Of a DNA stretch of 34,037 bases, positions 2,093 to 32,658 are shown in pieces (position 1 is the first letter of the stretch; each line of letters begins with the position of its first letter). Below the pieces are notes generated by a model. That model was not told the origin of the DNA and did no database searches. It was given only the letters and a program-made list of their open reading frames with translations. This stretch comes from a bacterium (lineage in GTDB: Bacteria > JAMCPX01): contig JAJYJX010000002.1 in NCBI GenBank assembly GCA_021789095.1, forward strand, positions 1 to 34,037, written 5' to 3'. Made by a program: the position numbers and the translations under genes.

Positions 2093-5089
2093 ATGAATTC
2101 TAAAAAACACGCATGGCAATTTGTTGCGGGGCTTACAATTCCGTTCATGATAATTTTATCACTGACTGCATGCTCAAAGAGCTCCAGTGGAAGCGCATCA
2201 ATCGGTCCAAACGATCCCTTTACAGGTCTTGGCGTAAATCAGACCATCCAGACGCCACAGGGTTCTCTTCAATACCCTGTTGAAATCATAAGGGACACCT
2301 ACGGCATTCCGCACATCTACGGAAGGACCATGACCGATGTTGCATTCGCGCAGGGCTATGCAGAGGCATCAGACAGGCTTTTTGAAATGGACATGTTCAG
2401 GCATATAGCTACAGGCACATTGACAGAGTACTTTGGGGCGGGACCCCGCAATTCGGTATTAACCGAAGACATACATTCAAAAATGATGGGCTTTTCAACC
2501 ATTGCCCAGATTGTATATGACCAGACCCCTGCTGACCTTCAAAACATACTTCAATCGTTCTGCAATGGAATAAATTTCTACCTGAGTCAGCTGTCACAGA
2601 AAGTACAGGCAGATCCAAAGGCAAAGGTCCTGCCTGCGGAGTATTCAACCGCGTTTATGGGGATAACCATTACTGACATAAAACCATTCACACCGCAGGA
2701 CATCATTGCATTCGGTAAGTTTGAATCTTACAGCCTTACCATGGAAAATGAAGGAACAAAGATCAATGCCACGGATTACTTCACCACAGCAGCCGCAACA
2801 TTCACATCCAGTTCATCCGACCCGGGACTGCGTCATTTTTCAGGCATTACGTACGATTTTGCGCGTTCAGAGCCTGCTGCAAAAGCGCCTGCTGTACCCC
2901 TGCCAAACCCGTTTTCTTATGCAACATCAACGACGTTCTCATTGTTGTCGTATAATACCTTTAACCCCATGGCTATCTCAGGTACACAGAACAACACCGC
3001 TTTACAGCCTTTGCAGATAAACCAGAAGTCCTTACAGGGTGCTGAAGCGTTTTATAAATCATTGCAAAGCGGTCCTTTTGGCTTTTTGCATAAAGGTCAC
3101 ACCTCAGGCAGGATCGGCAGCAACAACTGGACGATCCGTGCAAAACTCACAAAAGACGGCCATGCGATCCTTGCCAATGACACGCACCTGCCGCTTTACA
3201 ACCCTCCGATCTTCTATGAAGTCCATATCAATACAAAAGATATAGGAAACGGAAACATTAACACCATCGGCGTTGTATTCCCTATGGCACCCGGTGTAAT
3301 CATAGGACATAATGATTATATAGCATGGGGCGATACAGTGTTTCCTTCTGATGTTATTGACGTTTATCAGGAGACCGTTGTTCCGGGCAGTCCTGATTCG
3401 GTTATGTATAACGGCACTCCCTGCCGAATACAAACTGTGGCTGTACCCTTCACGTTCGGAGGCGCATTAAACGGAAACGTAGTAACAACCGATACCTATG
3501 ACATGTATTACGTTACAATTCCGGGCCACGGTACAATGCCCATAATACCCGGAAGTTACACTCCAGGTTCAACATCAGCCATAGCATTCACATGGACAGG
3601 CATGATACCATCGAATGAACTGCAGGCATTTTACGGCATTGATCAGGCACAAAACCTTGATGGTTTCATAGCAGCACAGGATCTTTTCAAGGTAGGTGCA
3701 CAGAACTTTGTTTATGCTGATATATACGGAAATATCTATTTAACAGACCAGAGTGCTATTCCACAAAGGGGCCCGGATGCATTCACTCATACAACAAACG
3801 CCCTGCCAAGCGGATTGCAATACAACGATTACGCGAATCCACCTTATCTTGTGCTGCCCGGCACAGATCCTAATGTTTACTGGATTGGTATGCTGCCGAC
3901 ATCCGCTTTGCCGTTCACGGAAAACCCTGCACAGAACTATATAGCAACGGCAAATCAGGACCCTGTTGGAGTAACGTACAACAACGAGCCGCTTGATAAT
4001 CCGTATTATCTCGGAGGGTTCTTTGATCCCGGTTTCAGGGCCCAGCAGATAGACAAGGATATAGAAGCAGGAGCGCCAAACATAGATCTTGCCTATGTCC
4101 AGAACAATATACAGGCTGATCATACGGATACGTATGCACTGCGGATACTGCCGTTTCTGCAAAAGGCATACGCTGATCTGCAAAGTTCTATCCTTGGCGG
4201 TTCACTCACTGCAACTGCGATGAATTATCTGAATGCATGGGCAACGAGCACCCATCCCTATGATACGCCTACAGGCCTGTCTCCCTCTGCAACACAGGAG
4301 GACATTAATAACAGCATTGCAACATCCATATTTGAGGCCTTCGTACAGAGGCTGTTTACCAATATCTTTTATGACAAGATACAGGCAATAGGACAGGACA
4401 GGGCGCTCGACGATGGTATCATCATCAATACATTGCTGACCGTGCTTGAGAACCCGACACAGACTGCAACATATTCACTTTCGGGAACACAGAGCACGCT
4501 CCTTGATGCGCTTGCGGGGACAGGACCCTATTCGTACACCGTAAGGAGCCTTGACGAGATCATGATAGACAGCCTTGCTGAAGGCATAAGCGATCTTACC
4601 GCACCACCCAACTCTCAGTACAGCACACCGACAAGCTTTGGAACATCCGACATGACACAATGGCAGTGGGGCAAGCTCCATACCCTGACCTTCTCCGATC
4701 TGCTGAACCTTGCGGCAAACGCTGATTTTTTCCCGCAATTTAATCTGCCAAACAACGGAACAGGCTATCCAAGGCCGGGTAGTATGTTTTCTGTAGATCC
4801 CGGGACATTCGGATTTGAGATGGGCAATGGCTCTGCGCCATTTTATACAAATTATACCTATGATTCCGGTCCTGCTATAAGGTTTTCTGTTGAGATGAAA
4901 CCAGGTGCAATAGTGGGATACAACGTCCTGCCCGGCGGGGAGTCAGGAATGGGGCCGGATCCTGCAAACCCGCCAAAGCATTACGGGGACCAGGTAAACC
5001 TTTGGATAAACAACCAGGTACACCCTCAGTGGTTCTATCCAAAGGACATCATAGCACATGCTGAATCAAGGACCATATTCCAGCCTTGA
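2093..5089 (+). CDS. Penicillin acylase family (Ntn-hydrolase) lipoprotein
   Basis: A 998-residue precursor of the penicillin amidase (S45) family. It begins with a lipoprotein signal peptide ending in the lipobox LTAC (Cys27), so export and lipid anchoring are predicted. The alpha-chain signature RDTYGIPHIYG...GYAEASDRLFEMDMFR lies at about residues 65-105. The autocatalytic site is GSNNW: cleavage after Gly342 would expose Ser343 as the N-terminal nucleophile of the beta chain. Asn621 in TANQDP is the likely oxyanion-hole Asn. The family hydrolyses amide bonds of acylated amines (beta-lactams, N-acyl-homoserine lactones, cyclic lipopeptides); the substrate here is unknown. The precursor is longer than the usual 750-850 residues, mainly in the beta chain. 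The start is well supported by GGAGG 6 bases upstream of ATG. It stands alone and is followed by palindromic repeats. Confidence 0.92.
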   Translation: MNSKKHAWQFVAGLTIPFMIILSLTACSKSSSGSASIGPNDPFTGLGVNQTIQTPQGSLQYPVEIIRDTYGIPHIYGRTMTDVAFAQGYAEASDRLFEMDMFRHIATGTLTEYFGAGPRNSVLTEDIHSKMMGFSTIAQIVYDQTPADLQNILQSFCNGINFYLSQLSQKVQADPKAKVLPAEYSTAFMGITITDIKPFTPQDIIAFGKFESYSLTMENEGTKINATDYFTTAAATFTSSSSDPGLRHFSGITYDFARSEPAAKAPAVPLPNPFSYATSTTFSLLSYNTFNPMAISGTQNNTALQPLQINQKSLQGAEAFYKSLQSGPFGFLHKGHTSGRIGSNNWTIRAKLTKDGHAILANDTHLPLYNPPIFYEVHINTKDIGNGNINTIGVVFPMAPGVIIGHNDYIAWGDTVFPSDVIDVYQETVVPGSPDSVMYNGTPCRIQTVAVPFTFGGALNGNVVTTDTYDMYYVTIPGHGTMPIIPGSYTPGSTSAIAFTWTGMIPSNELQAFYGIDQAQNLDGFIAAQDLFKVGAQNFVYADIYGNIYLTDQSAIPQRGPDAFTHTTNALPSGLQYNDYANPPYLVLPGTDPNVYWIGMLPTSALPFTENPAQNYIATANQDPVGVTYNNEPLDNPYYLGGFFDPGFRAQQIDKDIEAGAPNIDLAYVQNNIQADHTDTYALRILPFLQKAYADLQSSILGGSLTATAMNYLNAWATSTHPYDTPTGLSPSATQEDINNSIATSIFEAFVQRLFTNIFYDKIQAIGQDRALDDGIIINTLLTVLENPTQTATYSLSGTQSTLLDALAGTGPYSYTVRSLDEIMIDSLAEGISDLTAPPNSQYSTPTSFGTSDMTQWQWGKLHTLTFSDLLNLAANADFFPQFNLPNNGTGYPRPGSMFSVDPGTFGFEMGNGSAPFYTNYTYDSGPAIRFSVEMKPGAIVGYNVLPGGESGMGPDPANPPKHYGDQVNLWINNQVHPQWFYPKDIIAHAESRTIFQP

Positions 5090-16695: not shown

Positions 16696-17661
16696 TCAGC
16701 TCTGATTCAGCATGCCTTTATAAAATTCTTCTTCCTTCAGGGATTGTATCCACAGCATATCTGACACAATGCTGAAATCCGGGGTGTCTGATTCGGATAT
16801 ACCTTTGAATGTGAGTGAGATATCCGTCCACCTTCCGGCAATATTTTTCATAAGGGATACAAGCCTTTTGTTCGCAAACTTCTCCAGGAAATCTGCATAC
16901 ATCTTCCTGAATCCGCCGCCGCCTGTCCCTCTTTTTTCTATTACCTGATATGCAAAACGCGCTAGCCACTTCCAGTCATCAAGTTCTCTCCATTCTACGA
17001 CCTTCTTTGAAGCAAGTTGAATGCCTTTTACACCATAGCCGTCGAAATCTTCCGATGACAGCATTCGCTGCGCATTCTCTCTGGATGCGTTTGTAAAAAG
17101 CTTTTTCTTGTGCAGTTCCAGAACAGGCCTTGGTACCGTAGCAAAGTTTGCACGTGCGCCTTCAGGGAAGTTTCCGTGCAGGACTCCCTCAAGAAGGGAA
17201 TCAAAACCACATCTTGTAAGTCCTTTGCGTTCCGTATCGGACACATATGCAATATTCTCGTCCATGTTGCAGCCCCATACTATTACTGCATGTCCGGGAA
17301 AATGAGTTTTACTCTTGTAATAATCAAGGTAAAAGATGTCCGTTCTCAACAGTACGGGTATGCCCTTATCAATACTGGTGATCAATGCTTCTCTTATCTC
17401 TTCCTGAGAGCACGATTCCTGCCACTTGAATTCAATGCCCATGCTGCTGAAAAATACCTTTTCTATATCCACGGACCTGAAGTGCATCATCCTTGACGGC
17501 GTCAGTCCTTCAATGTACCAGAAACCGATCCCTTCTCCGATGCCGAAGCACTCCGGTTCTGTCAGATCATATCCGTAAAAATTCATAAGATCACCCAGCG
17601 CCGTTGATGCACAGTGCCTGCCGGGCTTATGTGCCCAGTGTTCAATTATTTTTTCCGGCAT
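16696..17661 (-). CDS. BtrH N-terminal/DUF4872-type cysteine acyltransferase-like protein
   Basis: A 321-residue protein of the BtrH family (butirosin biosynthesis protein H N-terminal domain followed by DUF4872). The opening HKPGRHCASTALGDLMNFYG carries a conserved Cys17. FPGHAVIVWG supplies His124 and YVSDTE supplies Asp142, together a likely papain-like Cys-His-Asp triad. BtrH transfers an acyl chain from an acyl carrier protein to an aminoglycoside. Most family members, like this one, lie outside antibiotic clusters and have no known substrate. The C-terminal ~150 residues (WRELDDWKWLARFAYQVIEKRGTGGGGFRKMYADFLEK) match the helical DUF4872 pattern. A Shine-Dalgarno GAGGT lies 9 bases upstream. 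The gene follows pgi at a distance of 106 bases and no carrier protein is nearby. Confidence 0.8.
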   Translation of the reverse strand: MPEKIIEHWAHKPGRHCASTALGDLMNFYGYDLTEPECFGIGEGIGFWYIEGLTPSRMMHFRSVDIEKVFFSSMGIEFKWQESCSQEEIREALITSIDKGIPVLLRTDIFYLDYYKSKTHFPGHAVIVWGCNMDENIAYVSDTERKGLTRCGFDSLLEGVLHGNFPEGARANFATVPRPVLELHKKKLFTNASRENAQRMLSSEDFDGYGVKGIQLASKKVVEWRELDDWKWLARFAYQVIEKRGTGGGGFRKMYADFLEKFANKRLVSLMKNIAGRWTDISLTFKGISESDTPDFSIVSDMLWIQSLKEEEFYKGMLNQS

Positions 17662-25930: not shown

Positions 25931-25984
25931 ATAGTATTTAAAAAAAGTTGACATTATCCTTCTTCTTTGTCAAAGATATTATTA

Positions 25985-26932
25985 ATGTTACGGAGTTTAT
26001 TAATCATTGATGATTCTACCAGGGCCAGAAATGAGATAAAGTCTGTACTTGCAACTACAGGACTGTTCAGCATGTTCTACGAGGCTCCTGACGGCATATC
26101 AGGTTTCAAAGAGATGATTTCAAATCCACCTGATATGGTAATATGTAATGTGTTTATGCAGGACCCCAACGGTTTAAAGTTTCTTAAGCTGAAAAAGTCC
26201 CGCCATGAATTTGACAGCATACCCGTCCTTGTCGTTGCAAACAAGAATGACCTGAAAAAGAAACTGCATGTGCTTGAAGAAGGCGCACATGACTATGTTA
26301 CAAAGCCCTTTACACCCATCGAGCTTGTAACAAGCGTTAAATCGCACCTCAGAATAAAGGTCCTTCATGATGAACTTGTTGCAGCGAACAAGAAACTTCA
26401 GATGCTCGAGATGCTTTCAAACATTGACCCGCTGACAGGCCTGTACAACAGGCGGTTTTTCCTGCATACGCTCGAGAGGGAATTTGAAAGGGTAAACCGG
26501 TATAGCAGGCCATTATCCATGCTGATGCTTGACATGGATCACTTCAAATACATCAATGACAGATGCGGACATCCTTCCGGTGACAAGGTCTTAAACATCG
26601 TTGCCGGAATACTCAACACGGGCCTCAGGAAAATGGATGTCTGCGCAAGGTACGGCGGGGACGAGTTTATAATAATGCTTCCTGAAACAAACAGTCATGG
26701 AGCAATGGCTGTTGCAGAACGGTACATGAAGAAGATGCGGCAGCAGGCTTTTGCCTCTCTGTGCGACAAGTTGGATAAAACAACATGTTCAATCGGCATA
26801 TCGTGCATACCTGCATCCCCTATAAAAAATGTGGATGACTTTTTAAAGTCTGTTGACGATGCACTTTACATAGCAAAGAACTCGGGAAGAAACAGGATCT
26901 CGGTCTATAGCAGCCAGTCACACAATATGTAA
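25985..26932 (+). CDS. Diguanylate cyclase with degenerate receiver domain (REC-GGDEF)
   Basis: A 315-residue PleD/WspR-like protein: an N-terminal receiver domain (about 1-120), a short coiled linker, and a GGDEF domain (about 140-310) that makes cyclic di-GMP from two GTP. The GGDEF active site is intact (RYGGDEF, residues 222-228), as is the inhibitory I-site RKMD (215-218). In the receiver, the acidic pair (Asp9, Asp10) and Lys107 (YVTKPF) remain. The phospho-acceptor Asp is Asn55 (DMVICNVFMQDPNG), and the switch Thr/Ser is Ala85. It is therefore probably not activated by phosphorylation. ATG at 25985 (MLRSLLIIDDS) is preferred over an in-frame TTG at 25967; no Shine-Dalgarno supports either. 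It is divergent from glk and converges with the mutase gene. Confidence 0.9.
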   Translation: MLRSLLIIDDSTRARNEIKSVLATTGLFSMFYEAPDGISGFKEMISNPPDMVICNVFMQDPNGLKFLKLKKSRHEFDSIPVLVVANKNDLKKKLHVLEEGAHDYVTKPFTPIELVTSVKSHLRIKVLHDELVAANKKLQMLEMLSNIDPLTGLYNRRFFLHTLEREFERVNRYSRPLSMLMLDMDHFKYINDRCGHPSGDKVLNIVAGILNTGLRKMDVCARYGGDEFIIMLPETNSHGAMAVAERYMKKMRQQAFASLCDKLDKTTCSIGISCIPASPIKNVDDFLKSVDDALYIAKNSGRNRISVYSSQSHNM

Positions 26933-26939
26933 CAAAAAT

Positions 26940-28577
26940 TTAAAAAATCGCCGGGTCCCTGTACTCCCCGAACACGCTTCTCATTACATCCATGATCTCG
27001 CCTATGGACGCGTATGCCTCAACAGCTTCAAGGACAAAAGGCATAAGATTGTTTTTACCGTTTGCGGCGTCCTGTAACCTTTCCAGCGTGTCTCTGACCT
27101 TCACATTGTCCCTGCCCGATTTTATCCTGCCTGTTCTTTCCTTCTGCTTCTGCTCGACCTCGGGCGGGATAACGAGTATAGGTATGTCTCCTTTTTCTTC
27201 CATCCTGTATTTGTTCACACCCACTACAACCTTCTGCATACCGTCTATCTGCCTCTGATATCGGTAAGCCGCATCCGCTATCTCCATCTGCGGATAACCC
27301 TGTTCTATGGCTGGTATCATCCCGCCCATCTGATCTATCTTGTTTATGTAGTACCATGCATCCTGCTCGATCTCGTCTGTGAGTTTTTCTATAAAATATG
27401 CACCGCCGATCGGATCGATAATATTTGCAACACCGCTTTCCTCCGCGATGATCTGCTGTGTACGCAGCGCAACGGTAACAGCCTGCTCCGTGGGAAGTGC
27501 AAGTGTTTCATCCATGGAGTTTGTGTGGAGCGACTGTGTACCGCCGAGCACTGCTGCAAGCGCCTGCAATGCAACGCGTACAATGTTGTTCATGGGCTGC
27601 TGTGCAACGAGGCTGCAGCCTGCTGTCTGTGTGTGGAACCTCAGCCTCAATGATTCCGCCTTTTTTGCATTGAACCTTCCCTTCATGATCCTTGACCACA
27701 TCCTTCTGGCTGCGCGGAACTTGGCTATCTCTTCAAAAAAATCTATATGTGCATCAAAAAAGAATGAAAGCCTTGGAGCAAAATCATCAACATCGAGCCC
27801 GCGCTCTATGCCCGCCCTGATATACGCTATGCCGTCTGCCAGGGTGAATGCCAGCTCCTGCACAGCAGTTGAGCCTGCCTCCCGTATATGGTATCCGCTT
27901 ATACTTATAGTGTTCCATTTCGGAACATGCTTTGAGCAGTATTCGAATATATCCGTAATGATGCGCATGGAAGGCCCGGGAGGGTATATCCATGATTTCT
28001 GCGCTATGTATTCCTTCAGTATGTCATTCTGGATCGTTCCGCTTATCAGCTTTGGACTCACGCCCTGCTTTCTGGCAACTGCTATATACATTGCAAGCAG
28101 GACTATTGCAGGTGCGTTTATGGTCATGGATGTTGTTATTCTGTCAAGAGGTATGCCGTCAAAAATGACCTCCATATCTTTCAATGTGTCTACGGCAACA
28201 CCGCACTTGCCCACCTCTCCGGCTGCTCTGGGGTGATCGGAATCGTAACCCATTATCGTCGGCATGTGGAATGCAACCGAAAGCCCTGTCTGCCCGTGCG
28301 CTAGGAGATACTTGTAACGCCTGTTTGTTTCCTCCGCAGTGCCGAAGCCTGAGAACTGGCGTATGGTCCATAGCCTTCCCCTGTACATATTCTCATACAC
28401 ACCCCTGGTGTACGGATATCCTCCGGGCAGGCCCAGTTTCATATTATAGTCAAAGCCTTCAAGATCCTGATCCGTGTACAGGGGATCCAGTTCTTTGTCA
28501 GATATCGTTGAATATCTCTTGAGCCTGTTTCCTGAGAATTTTCCCTTGTTGTTTATCGTGTTATTTTTCGATCCCAT
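26940..28577 (-). CDS. icmA: AdoCbl-dependent acyl-CoA mutase large subunit, isobutyryl-CoA mutase type
   Basis: A 545-residue TIM-barrel subunit of the methylmalonyl-CoA mutase family, without the C-terminal B12-binding domain, so a separate small subunit (not in this window) is needed. Family landmarks are [65 protein letters not shown] and [14 protein letters not shown]. Two residues decide substrate choice. Methylmalonyl-CoA mutase has Tyr89 and Arg207, which hold the substrate carboxylate. Isobutyryl-CoA mutase has Phe and Gln at these places. Here RQFSGF gives Phe75 and IAQKSW gives Gln193, the same 118-residue spacing. It should therefore isomerise isobutyryl-CoA and n-butyryl-CoA, or a similar uncharged acyl-CoA, by a radical mechanism. 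It overlaps the adenosyltransferase gene by 17 bases. Confidence 0.88.
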
Positions 28578-29106
28578 CCCTTGCCTGCACTCCTTTGTGA
28601 TAATAATGCTTGATCTCCCTCATCTCTGTAACAAGGTCCGCCCGGTCGATGATCTCCTGTTTTGCATACCTGCCTGTAATGATGAGCTCTACATCGGGAG
28701 GTTTGTGCGATATGAGTTCAAGGGCGTCTTTTAGTGGGATAAGACCGAAGTCTATGGCAACATTGAGTTCATCGAGTATGACAATATTATACTTCCTGCC
28801 CGTAAGCGCCTGCTGTGCGGTTTTCAAACCCTTGCGCGCCATCTTTATGTCCTGTTCCGACGGACTACCCCTTTTTATGAAATGCGGTCCCCCCGCCTGC
28901 ACAATCTTCAGGTACGGCGAGAGCATTTTCTGCGCTTTCAACTCACCGTAATCTATCTTGCCCTTCATGAACTGTATTATGATGCTCTTGTATCCATGCC
29001 CTGCCGCACGTAACGCAAGGCCAAGTGAGGCGGTCGTTTTTCCCTTGCCGTTACCTGTATAAACCTGAATGAATCCGGGTCCTTTCGTATCTTTCTTGTT
29101 CATCAA
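28561..29106 (-). CDS. cobO: Cob(I)alamin adenosyltransferase, CobA/CobO/BtuR type
   Basis: A 181-residue ATP:corrinoid adenosyltransferase that attaches the 5'-deoxyadenosyl group to cob(I)alamin, making the cofactor of the mutase encoded next. It has an N-terminal P-loop ([14 protein letters not shown], Gly18 to Thr25), the family segments [12 protein letters not shown] and [18 protein letters not shown], and [13 protein letters not shown]...[26 protein letters not shown] at the C-terminus. Many family members lack much beyond this, so it is full length. The ATG overlaps the pepA stop by 4 bases, and its 3' end overlaps the mutase start by 17 bases. This placement argues that it supplies AdoCbl locally to the mutase. 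No cobalamin riboswitch is visible upstream in the operon. Confidence 0.95.
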
Positions 29107-30560
29107 AGTCCTTCAAAAAATTGCACAAGCAGCCGTATGCCGGCACCTGTGGCGCCCCTTTTGAAATAGGGCTTTGGCTTTTCGAGATATGCCGTACCGG
29201 CAATATCAATGTGCGCCCAGTTTGCATCTCCGATAAATTCTTTTAAAAATATACCTCCCTGTATAGTGCCTGCCCAGCGCGAGCCTGCGTTCTTGATATC
29301 GGCAACCTCGCTCTTCAGCAGGTCTTTGTAATCATCCCACATGGGCAGTTCCCACAGTCTGTCCCCGCTTTCCTCACCTGCCTTTATAAGTGCTTTCACC
29401 AGCTTGTCATCGCTGCCCATAATGCCGCTTGCCTCGGTCCCAAGAGCAACCACACATGCACCTGTCAGCGTGGCGAGGTCTATAATGGCCTTAGGCCTGT
29501 ATGTTTTGACAGCATAGTTGAGTGCATCTGCGAGGATCATCCTGCCCTCAGCATCCGTCGATATAATTTCCACGGTCTTGCCTGACAGCGTTTTTACGAC
29601 GTCGCCCGGCTTCTGTGCCCTGCCACCCGGCATGTTCTCCGTAAGCGGCATAACGGCAACAATGTTGAGAGGCAGCCGGAGCCTGGCCGCAAGTATGGTA
29701 GTCATTGCAACCGCAGCAGCTCCGCACATGTCAAACTTCATGTCTTCCATACCGCTGCTCGGCTTTATGGAGATACCTCCGCTGTCAAAGGTGATGCCTT
29801 TGCCTACAAGTGCGTACCATCCGGTTTTTTTTGAACCCTTATATTCAAGTATGACGACCTTCGGGGGTTCAGCACTGCCTTGTGCAACGCCCAGGAATGC
29901 TCCCCACCCCATCTTCTGAAGCACAGGCCTGTCAAGCACCTTTACCCGTACACCCTGTTTTTTTGCTTCTGCACTCACCTCTTTTGTAAACACGGTCGGT
30001 GTCATGAGATTGCTCGGTGCATCGGCAAGCCCGCGGGCTTCATTGACCGCATCTGCAACCATACGGGCACGATCCATGACTTTTCCCGATACCTTTTTCC
30101 TGTCAAAGCTGTAAACGGAGATCACCGGCCCCGGTCCTTTACCGGCCTTCTTGTCATCGGATGATGTTTTGAGGTCATCGTAGCTGTACCTTGCCAGTAC
30201 AATGCCTTCGGTCAGGGCGCAGGCGGCGTCATCCGTTGAGATGTTTCCGGACGGCATCACCACAACGACCCTGTTCGCATGCACGGCCTCCGCATCCTTT
30301 GCTGCACCCGCGCCGATCCTCCTGTACGATTCCGTGGTTACCCTTTTTTTATCTTCGAGTTTTAAAAATGAATACCATGTTCCGTCCTGGCTTAAAAACC
30401 GCAGTCCGTTTTTCGCTTCTTTAAGCTGCGATTCAACATGCTTTACAATGCCGGGAGGTAAAGATTTTAGCACAATCTTTATGTTATCTTTAAAATACCC
30501 GTAAATCTTCAGTTCTGCTTTTACCTTATTATAGTCTCCTTCACCGGAAAGGATCTTCAC
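29103..30560 (-). CDS. pepA: Leucyl aminopeptidase (M17)
   Basis: A 485-residue cytosolic dizinc/manganese aminopeptidase that removes N-terminal residues, preferring Leu, from peptides. The N-terminal domain (about 1-165) is divergent, as is usual. The C-terminal catalytic domain has GKGITFDSGGISIKPSSGMEDMKFDMCGAA (Lys254, Asp259 and Asp277 as ligands or catalytic residues) and the signature STDAEGRMILADAL (Asp336, Glu338, Arg340; the first residue is Ser instead of the usual Asn). In some species PepA also binds DNA, which cannot be judged here. Its stop overlaps the cobO start by 4 bases and it follows a 74-residue protein by 24 bases. Coupling with cobO and the mutase suggests peptide/amino-acid catabolism feeding branched acyl-CoA. 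Confidence 0.95.
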   Translation of the reverse strand: MKILSGEGDYNKVKAELKIYGYFKDNIKIVLKSLPPGIVKHVESQLKEAKNGLRFLSQDGTWYSFLKLEDKKRVTTESYRRIGAGAAKDAEAVHANRVVVVMPSGNISTDDAACALTEGIVLARYSYDDLKTSSDDKKAGKGPGPVISVYSFDRKKVSGKVMDRARMVADAVNEARGLADAPSNLMTPTVFTKEVSAEAKKQGVRVKVLDRPVLQKMGWGAFLGVAQGSAEPPKVVILEYKGSKKTGWYALVGKGITFDSGGISIKPSSGMEDMKFDMCGAAAVAMTTILAARLRLPLNIVAVMPLTENMPGGRAQKPGDVVKTLSGKTVEIISTDAEGRMILADALNYAVKTYRPKAIIDLATLTGACVVALGTEASGIMGSDDKLVKALIKAGEESGDRLWELPMWDDYKDLLKSEVADIKNAGSRWAGTIQGGIFLKEFIGDANWAHIDIAGTAYLEKPKPYFKRGATGAGIRLLVQFFEGL

Positions 30561-31964: not shown

Positions 31965-32658
31965 TTAGCGCTTGTGTTTGAAGGACGGTGGTATTGCAGA
32001 TCTGTATGCTTTGCCCCTGAGGAGCCTTGCCAGGGTAAGTGACGATTTCCCGAACCGCTTGTTTATGTTGTCCATTGTCATAAAAGCCCGCCGTAATTTG
32101 TTTTCCGACCGGAACAACGACCCGGTCGTAAACCTTGTAAGACCCGATACCGACACGCCGACAATCCTGACAGGCATTTTAAATCTGCGGTCTGAAAACA
32201 GCGTCAGAGCAGTCTCGGTCAAGCGTCATGCTGTTGCCGATGGAGCGGGCAAGCCCCAGCTCACGTCGTATACGCGGCTTGATCTTTTCCGCGATAGTAA
32301 GCGGATCTCCCATAAGATCACGTGAACCTGTTACATCCATGAATGCCTCGTCAATGGAATAGGCCTCGACAAGCGGAGTAAAATCATACAGGATCTTCAA
32401 GAAGGCATGCGAGTACTTTATGTATTCTTCGATATGAGCGTTCGTAAATATGATACCGGCGTATCGCTTTTTTGCCTCTCCTACTGTCATGCCCGTCTTA
32501 ACGCCGTATTTTCTCGCTTCATAGGACGGAGAAAGGACAACCGTCCTCTTGCCTGTACCTATAACAGCGATAGGCTTGCCTGCCAGGGACGGATTAAAGA
32601 TCTTCTCGACAGACGCGAAGTACGCGTCCATATCAACATGGAGTATGTCTTTGTCCAT
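31965..32658 (-). pseudogene. dinB: DNA polymerase IV remnant with internal deletions and frameshift
   Basis: The Y-family lesion-bypass polymerase should be about 350-400 residues; only about 240 codons remain. The first 145 residues are intact palm/finger sequence (ILHVDMDAYFASVE with Asp9; SPSYEARKYGVKTGM; catalytic YSIDEAFMDVTGS). The frame then runs from RRELGLA directly into RSIGNSMTLDRD, which resembles the later linker before the little-finger domain, so about 90 residues are missing in between. A second break near 32222 changes frame: the last 80 codons read LTETALTLFSDRRFKMPVRIVGVSVSGL, the true C-terminal part, in another frame, ending KHKR. The product cannot fold as a polymerase. 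It lies beside the DUF2007 remnant and a restriction-modification pair. Confidence 0.88.

Follow-up and report, generated by a model that had tools for sequence, protein, structure and literature searches.

Introduction

The AdoCbl-dependent acyl-CoA mutases are enzymes in which homolysis of AdoCbl leads to a radical 1,2-shift of the CoA-carbonyl group. In methylmalonyl-CoA mutase (MCM), Tyr89 and Arg207 hold the free carboxylate of the substrate, and the isobutyryl-CoA mutase (ICM) of Streptomyces has the pair Phe80/Gln198. The latter enzyme is IcmA/IcmB (Zerbe-Burkhardt 1998 and Ratnatilleke 1999, both cited in PMC2847961). Isobutyrate arises in protein breakdown, and its degradation is known from relatively few anaerobes. 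Syntrophothermus lipocalidus isomerises isobutyrate, and its ICM cluster (Slip_0757-0760) consists of both subunits, an adenosyltransferase and MeaB (PMC5017805). In addition, more putative ICM genes have been published (PMC6687939, PMC8674449), as has the misannotation of ICM-type enzymes as MCM (PMC7764203).

Here a mutase gene is described that lies in a stretch of bacterial DNA of 34,037 nucleotides, called the window below, and that probably encodes the large subunit of an AdoCbl-dependent ICM (EC 5.4.99.13). As in S. lipocalidus, the system appears to comprise separate large and small subunits, a CobA-type adenosyltransferase and MeaB, and it would convert isobutyryl-CoA to butyryl-CoA for β-oxidation. 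Unlike the S. lipocalidus cluster, its parts are split over three contigs (CobO and mutase; small subunit, thiolase and DUF35 protein; MeaB), and a leucyl aminopeptidase gene heads the mutase operon. It resembles Streptomyces IcmA/IcmB in the two-subunit architecture and in the Phe/Gln pair as described for that enzyme, but the role of the Streptomyces enzyme is a different one, the supply of polyketide building blocks. Because two-subunit ICM clusters and the misannotation are already published, the assignment is a sound reannotation within a known kind of enzyme.

The mutase gene and its putative operon

The features of the window that concern the mutase are as follows.

29103..30560, minus strand: leucyl aminopeptidase, first gene of a putative three-gene operon (NF002073/NF002074 above cut-off)
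28561..29106, minus strand: cob(I)alamin adenosyltransferase of the CobO/CobA/BtuR type, 181 aa (TIGR00708, 177.4 bits, above cut-off)
26940..28577, minus strand: probable isobutyryl-CoA mutase large (substrate-binding) subunit (ORF, TIGR00641, F/Q columns, tree)
28353..28355, minus strand: codon of Phe75, in the column of MCM Tyr89 and IcmF Phe598 (alignments)
28272..28274, minus strand: codon of Ala102, in the column of HCM Asp117; Ala speaks against HCM (alignments)
28266..28268, minus strand: codon of His104, Asp in MCM, IcmF and HCM (alignments)
27999..28001, minus strand: codon of Gln193, in the column of MCM Arg207 and IcmF Gln742 (alignments)
25967-26932, plus strand: response regulator/diguanylate cyclase, convergent with the mutase gene

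The mutase ORF starts with ATG and encodes 545 aa with no B12-binding domain. On the minus strand the genes follow in the order leucyl aminopeptidase, CobO and mutase, overlapping by 4 nt and then by 17 nt. CobO is found directly upstream of the mutase gene in seven of the eight other family genomes, the eighth ending at a contig end, and the aminopeptidase is also present in six of these eight, the rest being cut by contig ends. Through the aminopeptidase, the degradation of peptides (valine) might conceivably be connected with isobutyryl-CoA. Within the window no β-oxidation gene was identified and no cobalamin riboswitch was found, Rfam giving two tRNAs only.

Other genes of the window include one for a 998-aa penicillin-amidase family protein (2093-5089, plus strand), possibly an acylase of another kind, and one (16696-17661, minus strand) whose 321-aa product carries BtrH_N and DUF4872 domains and is akin to a protein of butirosin biosynthesis. 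Furthermore, the match of a 159-aa ORF (32179-32658, minus strand) to DNA polymerase IV is limited to the initial 140-odd residues of the latter, and the ORF is a truncated gene, a split gene or an assembly error.

Substrate-binding and catalytic residues

Alignments (phmmer against PDB, and MAFFT) place Phe75 (RQFSGF) of the window mutase opposite Tyr89 of P. shermanii MCM and Gln193 (IAQKSW) opposite Arg207, and the two residues are 118 apart in both enzymes. The sequence-only reading had claimed this pair, in these motifs, at this spacing and at these columns, and the alignments agree with it; neither Tyr nor Arg occurs there. In the IcmF chain 4xc6_A the specificity columns hold Phe618 and Gln762, that is, 598 and 742 after subtraction of a 20-residue tag, and the chain 4r3u_A of 2-hydroxyisobutyryl-CoA mutase (HCM) has Ile and Gln there, plus an Asp that the window mutase is without. 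The window mutase keeps R82, T85, S114, T195, Q197, Y243 and H244 as well as H328, Q330, Q361, S362, N366 and E370 (MCM numbering), and since the substrate and catalytic positions that were checked are conserved, the enzyme appears non-degenerate. His104 occupies the column of Asp118 of the characterised enzymes, but His is also found there in 22 of 94 sequences with the Phe/Gln pair.

The window mutase resembles IcmF (4XC6) in Phe and Gln at the specificity columns and in most of the catalytic residues checked; unlike it, IcmF is a single chain fused with G-protein and B12 domains, with 36% identity. IcmF was rejected as an identity because the 545-aa ORF is the mutase domain only, with no such fusion. 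HCM (4R3U; homologues in Methylibium, L127, and Xanthobacter, L126), the nearest PDB match at about 51% identity, is likewise of the two-subunit type with Gln at the Arg207 column, but differs from the window mutase in having Ile and Asp in place of Phe and Ala. Two-subunit MCM (L002 of the same genome; homologues in Acetomicrobium and Fervidicola) is similar in sequence family, length and catalytic residues, but has Tyr/Arg, and in other genomes genes for an epimerase, a carboxyltransferase and a biotin carrier lie next to it. No close relative of the window mutase with measured ICM activity was found.

Classes of large subunits and their tree

Among 122 aligned large subunits, 94 have Phe/Gln (F/Q), 25 Tyr/Arg (Y/R) and three Ile/Gln with the additional Asp (I/Q/D), and mixed pairs do not occur. 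The F/Q pair is kept in all eight family members of the window mutase, which are 78-83% identical to it. In a tree made by a quick maximum-likelihood method, with SH-aLRT support only and containing no biochemically characterised two-subunit ICM, the three classes can be separated with two changes, the minimum. The window mutase and its eight family members are grouped with a support of 100 and are joined by L012 (a MAG labelled Bdellovibrio) at 93, and the branch uniting all F/Q sequences has a support of 88, which is good but not decisive. The window mutase is located inside the F/Q group and outside the Y/R group of true MCM. The F/Q group includes Syntrophomonadaceae loci having the gene set of the published ICM cluster, and it contains the sub-motifs RQF..AQKSW, RMF..AQKTFM and AQKEW, which may differ in substrate.

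Divergent members of the family were also encountered. For the mutase large subunit, 19 hits were obtained in the 2.5 Mb genome G039 (loci L215-L228); about ten of the 14 long ones show unusual Tyr89/Arg207 columns (V/G, I/R, L/N, Q/A, I/G and L/L) and most of these rows are without His at the His244 column, the alignment of such divergent rows being less sure. These mutase-like proteins may carry out different chemistry. In addition, a mutase-like protein from a Dehalococcoidia MAG (L041, 8574-10442, minus strand) is highly diverged, with 35% identity, and is accompanied by B12-binding, CobO and MeaB genes of its own; its specificity columns are neither Y/R nor F/Q.

Gene neighbourhoods

Neighbourhoods were counted at 79 named loci with a single class, 70 F/Q and 9 Y/R. 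Acyl-CoA dehydrogenase genes occur at 43 of the 70 F/Q loci and CobO at 35, whereas neither occurs at the nine Y/R loci; conversely, methylmalonyl-CoA epimerase is found at eight of nine Y/R loci and none of the 70 F/Q loci, and the carboxyltransferase marker at eight of nine versus seven of 70. The P values are indicative only, because the markers were picked from L024, L019, L026 and the host genome and the loci are mutually related; the Y/R sample is small (9 loci) and kindred loci are not independent.

At L024 the F/Q mutase and its small subunit lie beside a thiolase, 3-hydroxyacyl-CoA dehydrogenase, enoyl-CoA hydratase, acyl-CoA dehydrogenase and an ETF subunit, and L019 and L023 resemble it (some gene names at these three loci were confirmed by Pfam and others judged from sequence). 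L012 too has an F/Q mutase beside β-oxidation genes of the butyryl-CoA type.

Partners in the host genome

The host genome (2.15 Mb, 203 contigs, 92% complete) contains exactly two PF01642 genes, the window mutase and L002 on contig C181. L002, with Tyr/Arg at the specificity columns, is next to a gene for a biotin carrier protein, and the presence of this true MCM indicates that the MCM pathway is real in the same genome as well. The earlier expectation of a B12-binding subunit of about 135 residues and a MeaB elsewhere in the genome was borne out: a stand-alone B12-binding subunit of 133 aa is encoded on contig C148, not adjacent to the window mutase, and the single MeaB gene on contig C122. 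The small subunit gene stands in an operon-like run with genes for an SCP-x type thiolase and a ChsH2-like OB-fold/zinc-ribbon (DUF35) protein, and all four family members inspected retain it. The conserved run with the small subunit stands at L093 (3-2082, minus strand) and L178-L181, and its thiolase shares 69% identity with a thiolase of the F/Q locus L024.

Metabolism of the host was sampled by family searches, which gave 16 acyl-CoA dehydrogenase, 8 enoyl-CoA hydratase, 9 thiolase and 4 2-oxoacid oxidoreductase gamma domain matches. These counts, together with an HBDH-ECH-ACAD run on C16, make a β-oxidation lifestyle likely. The residues, the conserved catalytic positions, the gene order, the presence of the partners and the membership in the F/Q group are established here.

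One small subunit and two large subunits

Two large-subunit genes were found in each of the family genomes searched, and a fragment besides in G006. Seven of these genomes (G000-G006) contain a single stand-alone small subunit each, including the 99% complete G001, the copy in G006 being cut by a contig end, and in the two least complete family genomes the small subunit was not found. In the host genome, G000, one small subunit (contig C148) stands against an F/Q (C57) and a Y/R (C181) large subunit. This small subunit is nearest to F/Q-type small subunits (L024 and L105, 71% each), but in the small-subunit tree the classes are not cleanly separated. Small subunits of the Y/R type from other loci share about 61% identity with the query, a level at which a second copy should not have escaped detection. 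A weak extra hit on C11 was rejected as a second stand-alone subunit, being a response regulator, and the other B12-binding hits in the host genome lie in frames of 442-773 aa, the 773-aa one on C36 resembling, by length only, a short methionine synthase.

The same pattern of one F/Q and one Y/R large subunit with a single stand-alone small subunit recurs in ten genomes from outside the family (G016, G017, G022, G027, G028, G040, G042, G044, G047 and G051). Their Y/R frames, 491-615 aa, are too short for a fused B12 domain, and no small subunit was found near these Y/R genes; the small subunit gene is close to the F/Q gene or stands apart from both large-subunit genes. As counter-examples, L090 carries a small subunit beside the large subunit of each class, two in all, and G031 has three. 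Sharing is suggested as the simplest reading of the two-to-one pattern, and we lean towards the view that one small cobalamin-binding subunit is common to F/Q isobutyryl-CoA mutase and Y/R MCM within the family and in ten or more genomes outside it. The C148 small subunit, the sole stand-alone one found, probably serves the true MCM large subunit on C181 too. A limited literature search gave nothing relevant on a shared small subunit, by which the idea is not shown to be new.

Substrate and proposed mechanism

The substrate, the cellular direction and the subunit pairing of the window mutase are what we infer from these data. The sequence-only reading had proposed an uncharged acyl-CoA in place of methylmalonyl-CoA, and the residues, the placement in the F/Q group and the gene context all support this; isobutyryl-/n-butyryl-CoA is our best guess, and a larger uncharged acyl-CoA is possible. 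In the proposed mechanism, the product of the overlapping CobO-type gene would supply AdoCbl, the G protein MeaB (C122) would load and guard it, and Phe and Gln would adapt the carboxylate pocket of MCM to an uncharged group. Isobutyryl-CoA, likely derived from isobutyrate or valine, would be converted to n-butyryl-CoA and then enter β-oxidation by the HBDH-ECH-ACAD run on C16.

A somewhat larger uncharged substrate, such as 2-methylbutyryl-/n-valeryl-CoA or a longer 2-methyl acyl-CoA, is unlikely but is the best of the alternatives. The F/Q pair indicates an uncharged substrate and nothing more, the F/Q sub-motifs may not all share one substrate, and the pairing of an SCP-x type thiolase with an OB-fold/zinc-ribbon protein, as in the run of the small subunit, also occurs with larger acyl chains. 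However, both specificity residues and Ala102 agree with IcmF, and L019 and L023, which share the RQF..AQKSW motif with the window mutase, adjoin genes of the butyryl-CoA type.

A pivalyl-CoA/isovaleryl-CoA mutase is less probable still. In pivalyl-CoA mutase a smaller residue replaces the Phe of ICM, and the F598A exchange in IcmF reportedly increases activity on pivalyl-CoA and decreases that on isobutyryl-CoA; the window mutase retains this Phe, as judged from an alignment without a characterised pivalyl-CoA mutase, and acyl-CoA β-oxidation genes are often present at F/Q loci. On the other side, IcmF with the same F/Q pair also converts pivalyl-CoA and isovaleryl-CoA (PMC9974510, PMC10481361). 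The retained Phe makes the pivalyl-CoA type, mentioned as possible from the sequence alone, less likely than was then allowed.

That the enzyme is an MCM in which F/Q is a tolerated variant is very improbable. Family-level matches bear the MCM name, and the window mutase is 58.7% identical to L002; nevertheless, both carboxylate-binding residues are missing, the epimerase gene is confined to the Y/R loci in our counts, and a separate Y/R mutase exists in the genome. MCM identity was rejected on Phe75/Gln193 in place of Tyr89/Arg207 and on the MCM equivalog NF006944, which gave 690 bits, below its cut-off of 876, a miss that is weak on its own because the model represents the 721-aa full-length form. 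The warning that routine annotation would give the wrong pathway was only partly right: the generic TIGR00641 (NCBIfam) matches with 829 bits while the equivalog misses its cut-off, and a real MCM is present. An HCM, suggested by the top PDB match and by Gln at the Arg207 column, is hardly to be expected and was rejected, because Phe75/Ala102 stand in place of Ile90/Asp117 and the HCMs form a separate, fully supported branch.

Significance

The isobutyryl-CoA mutase assignment corrects a gene that generic names place in the propionate/methylmalonyl route, and the two-residue test, which sorted all 122 sequences, is applicable to automatic annotation. If the sharing of the small subunit is true, the B12 carrier would be an exchangeable module for which both pathways compete, and the usual view of these mutases as one large and one small subunit would need revision. 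Moreover, the assignment predicts the use of isobutyrate across a whole uncultured family, represented by nine genomes.
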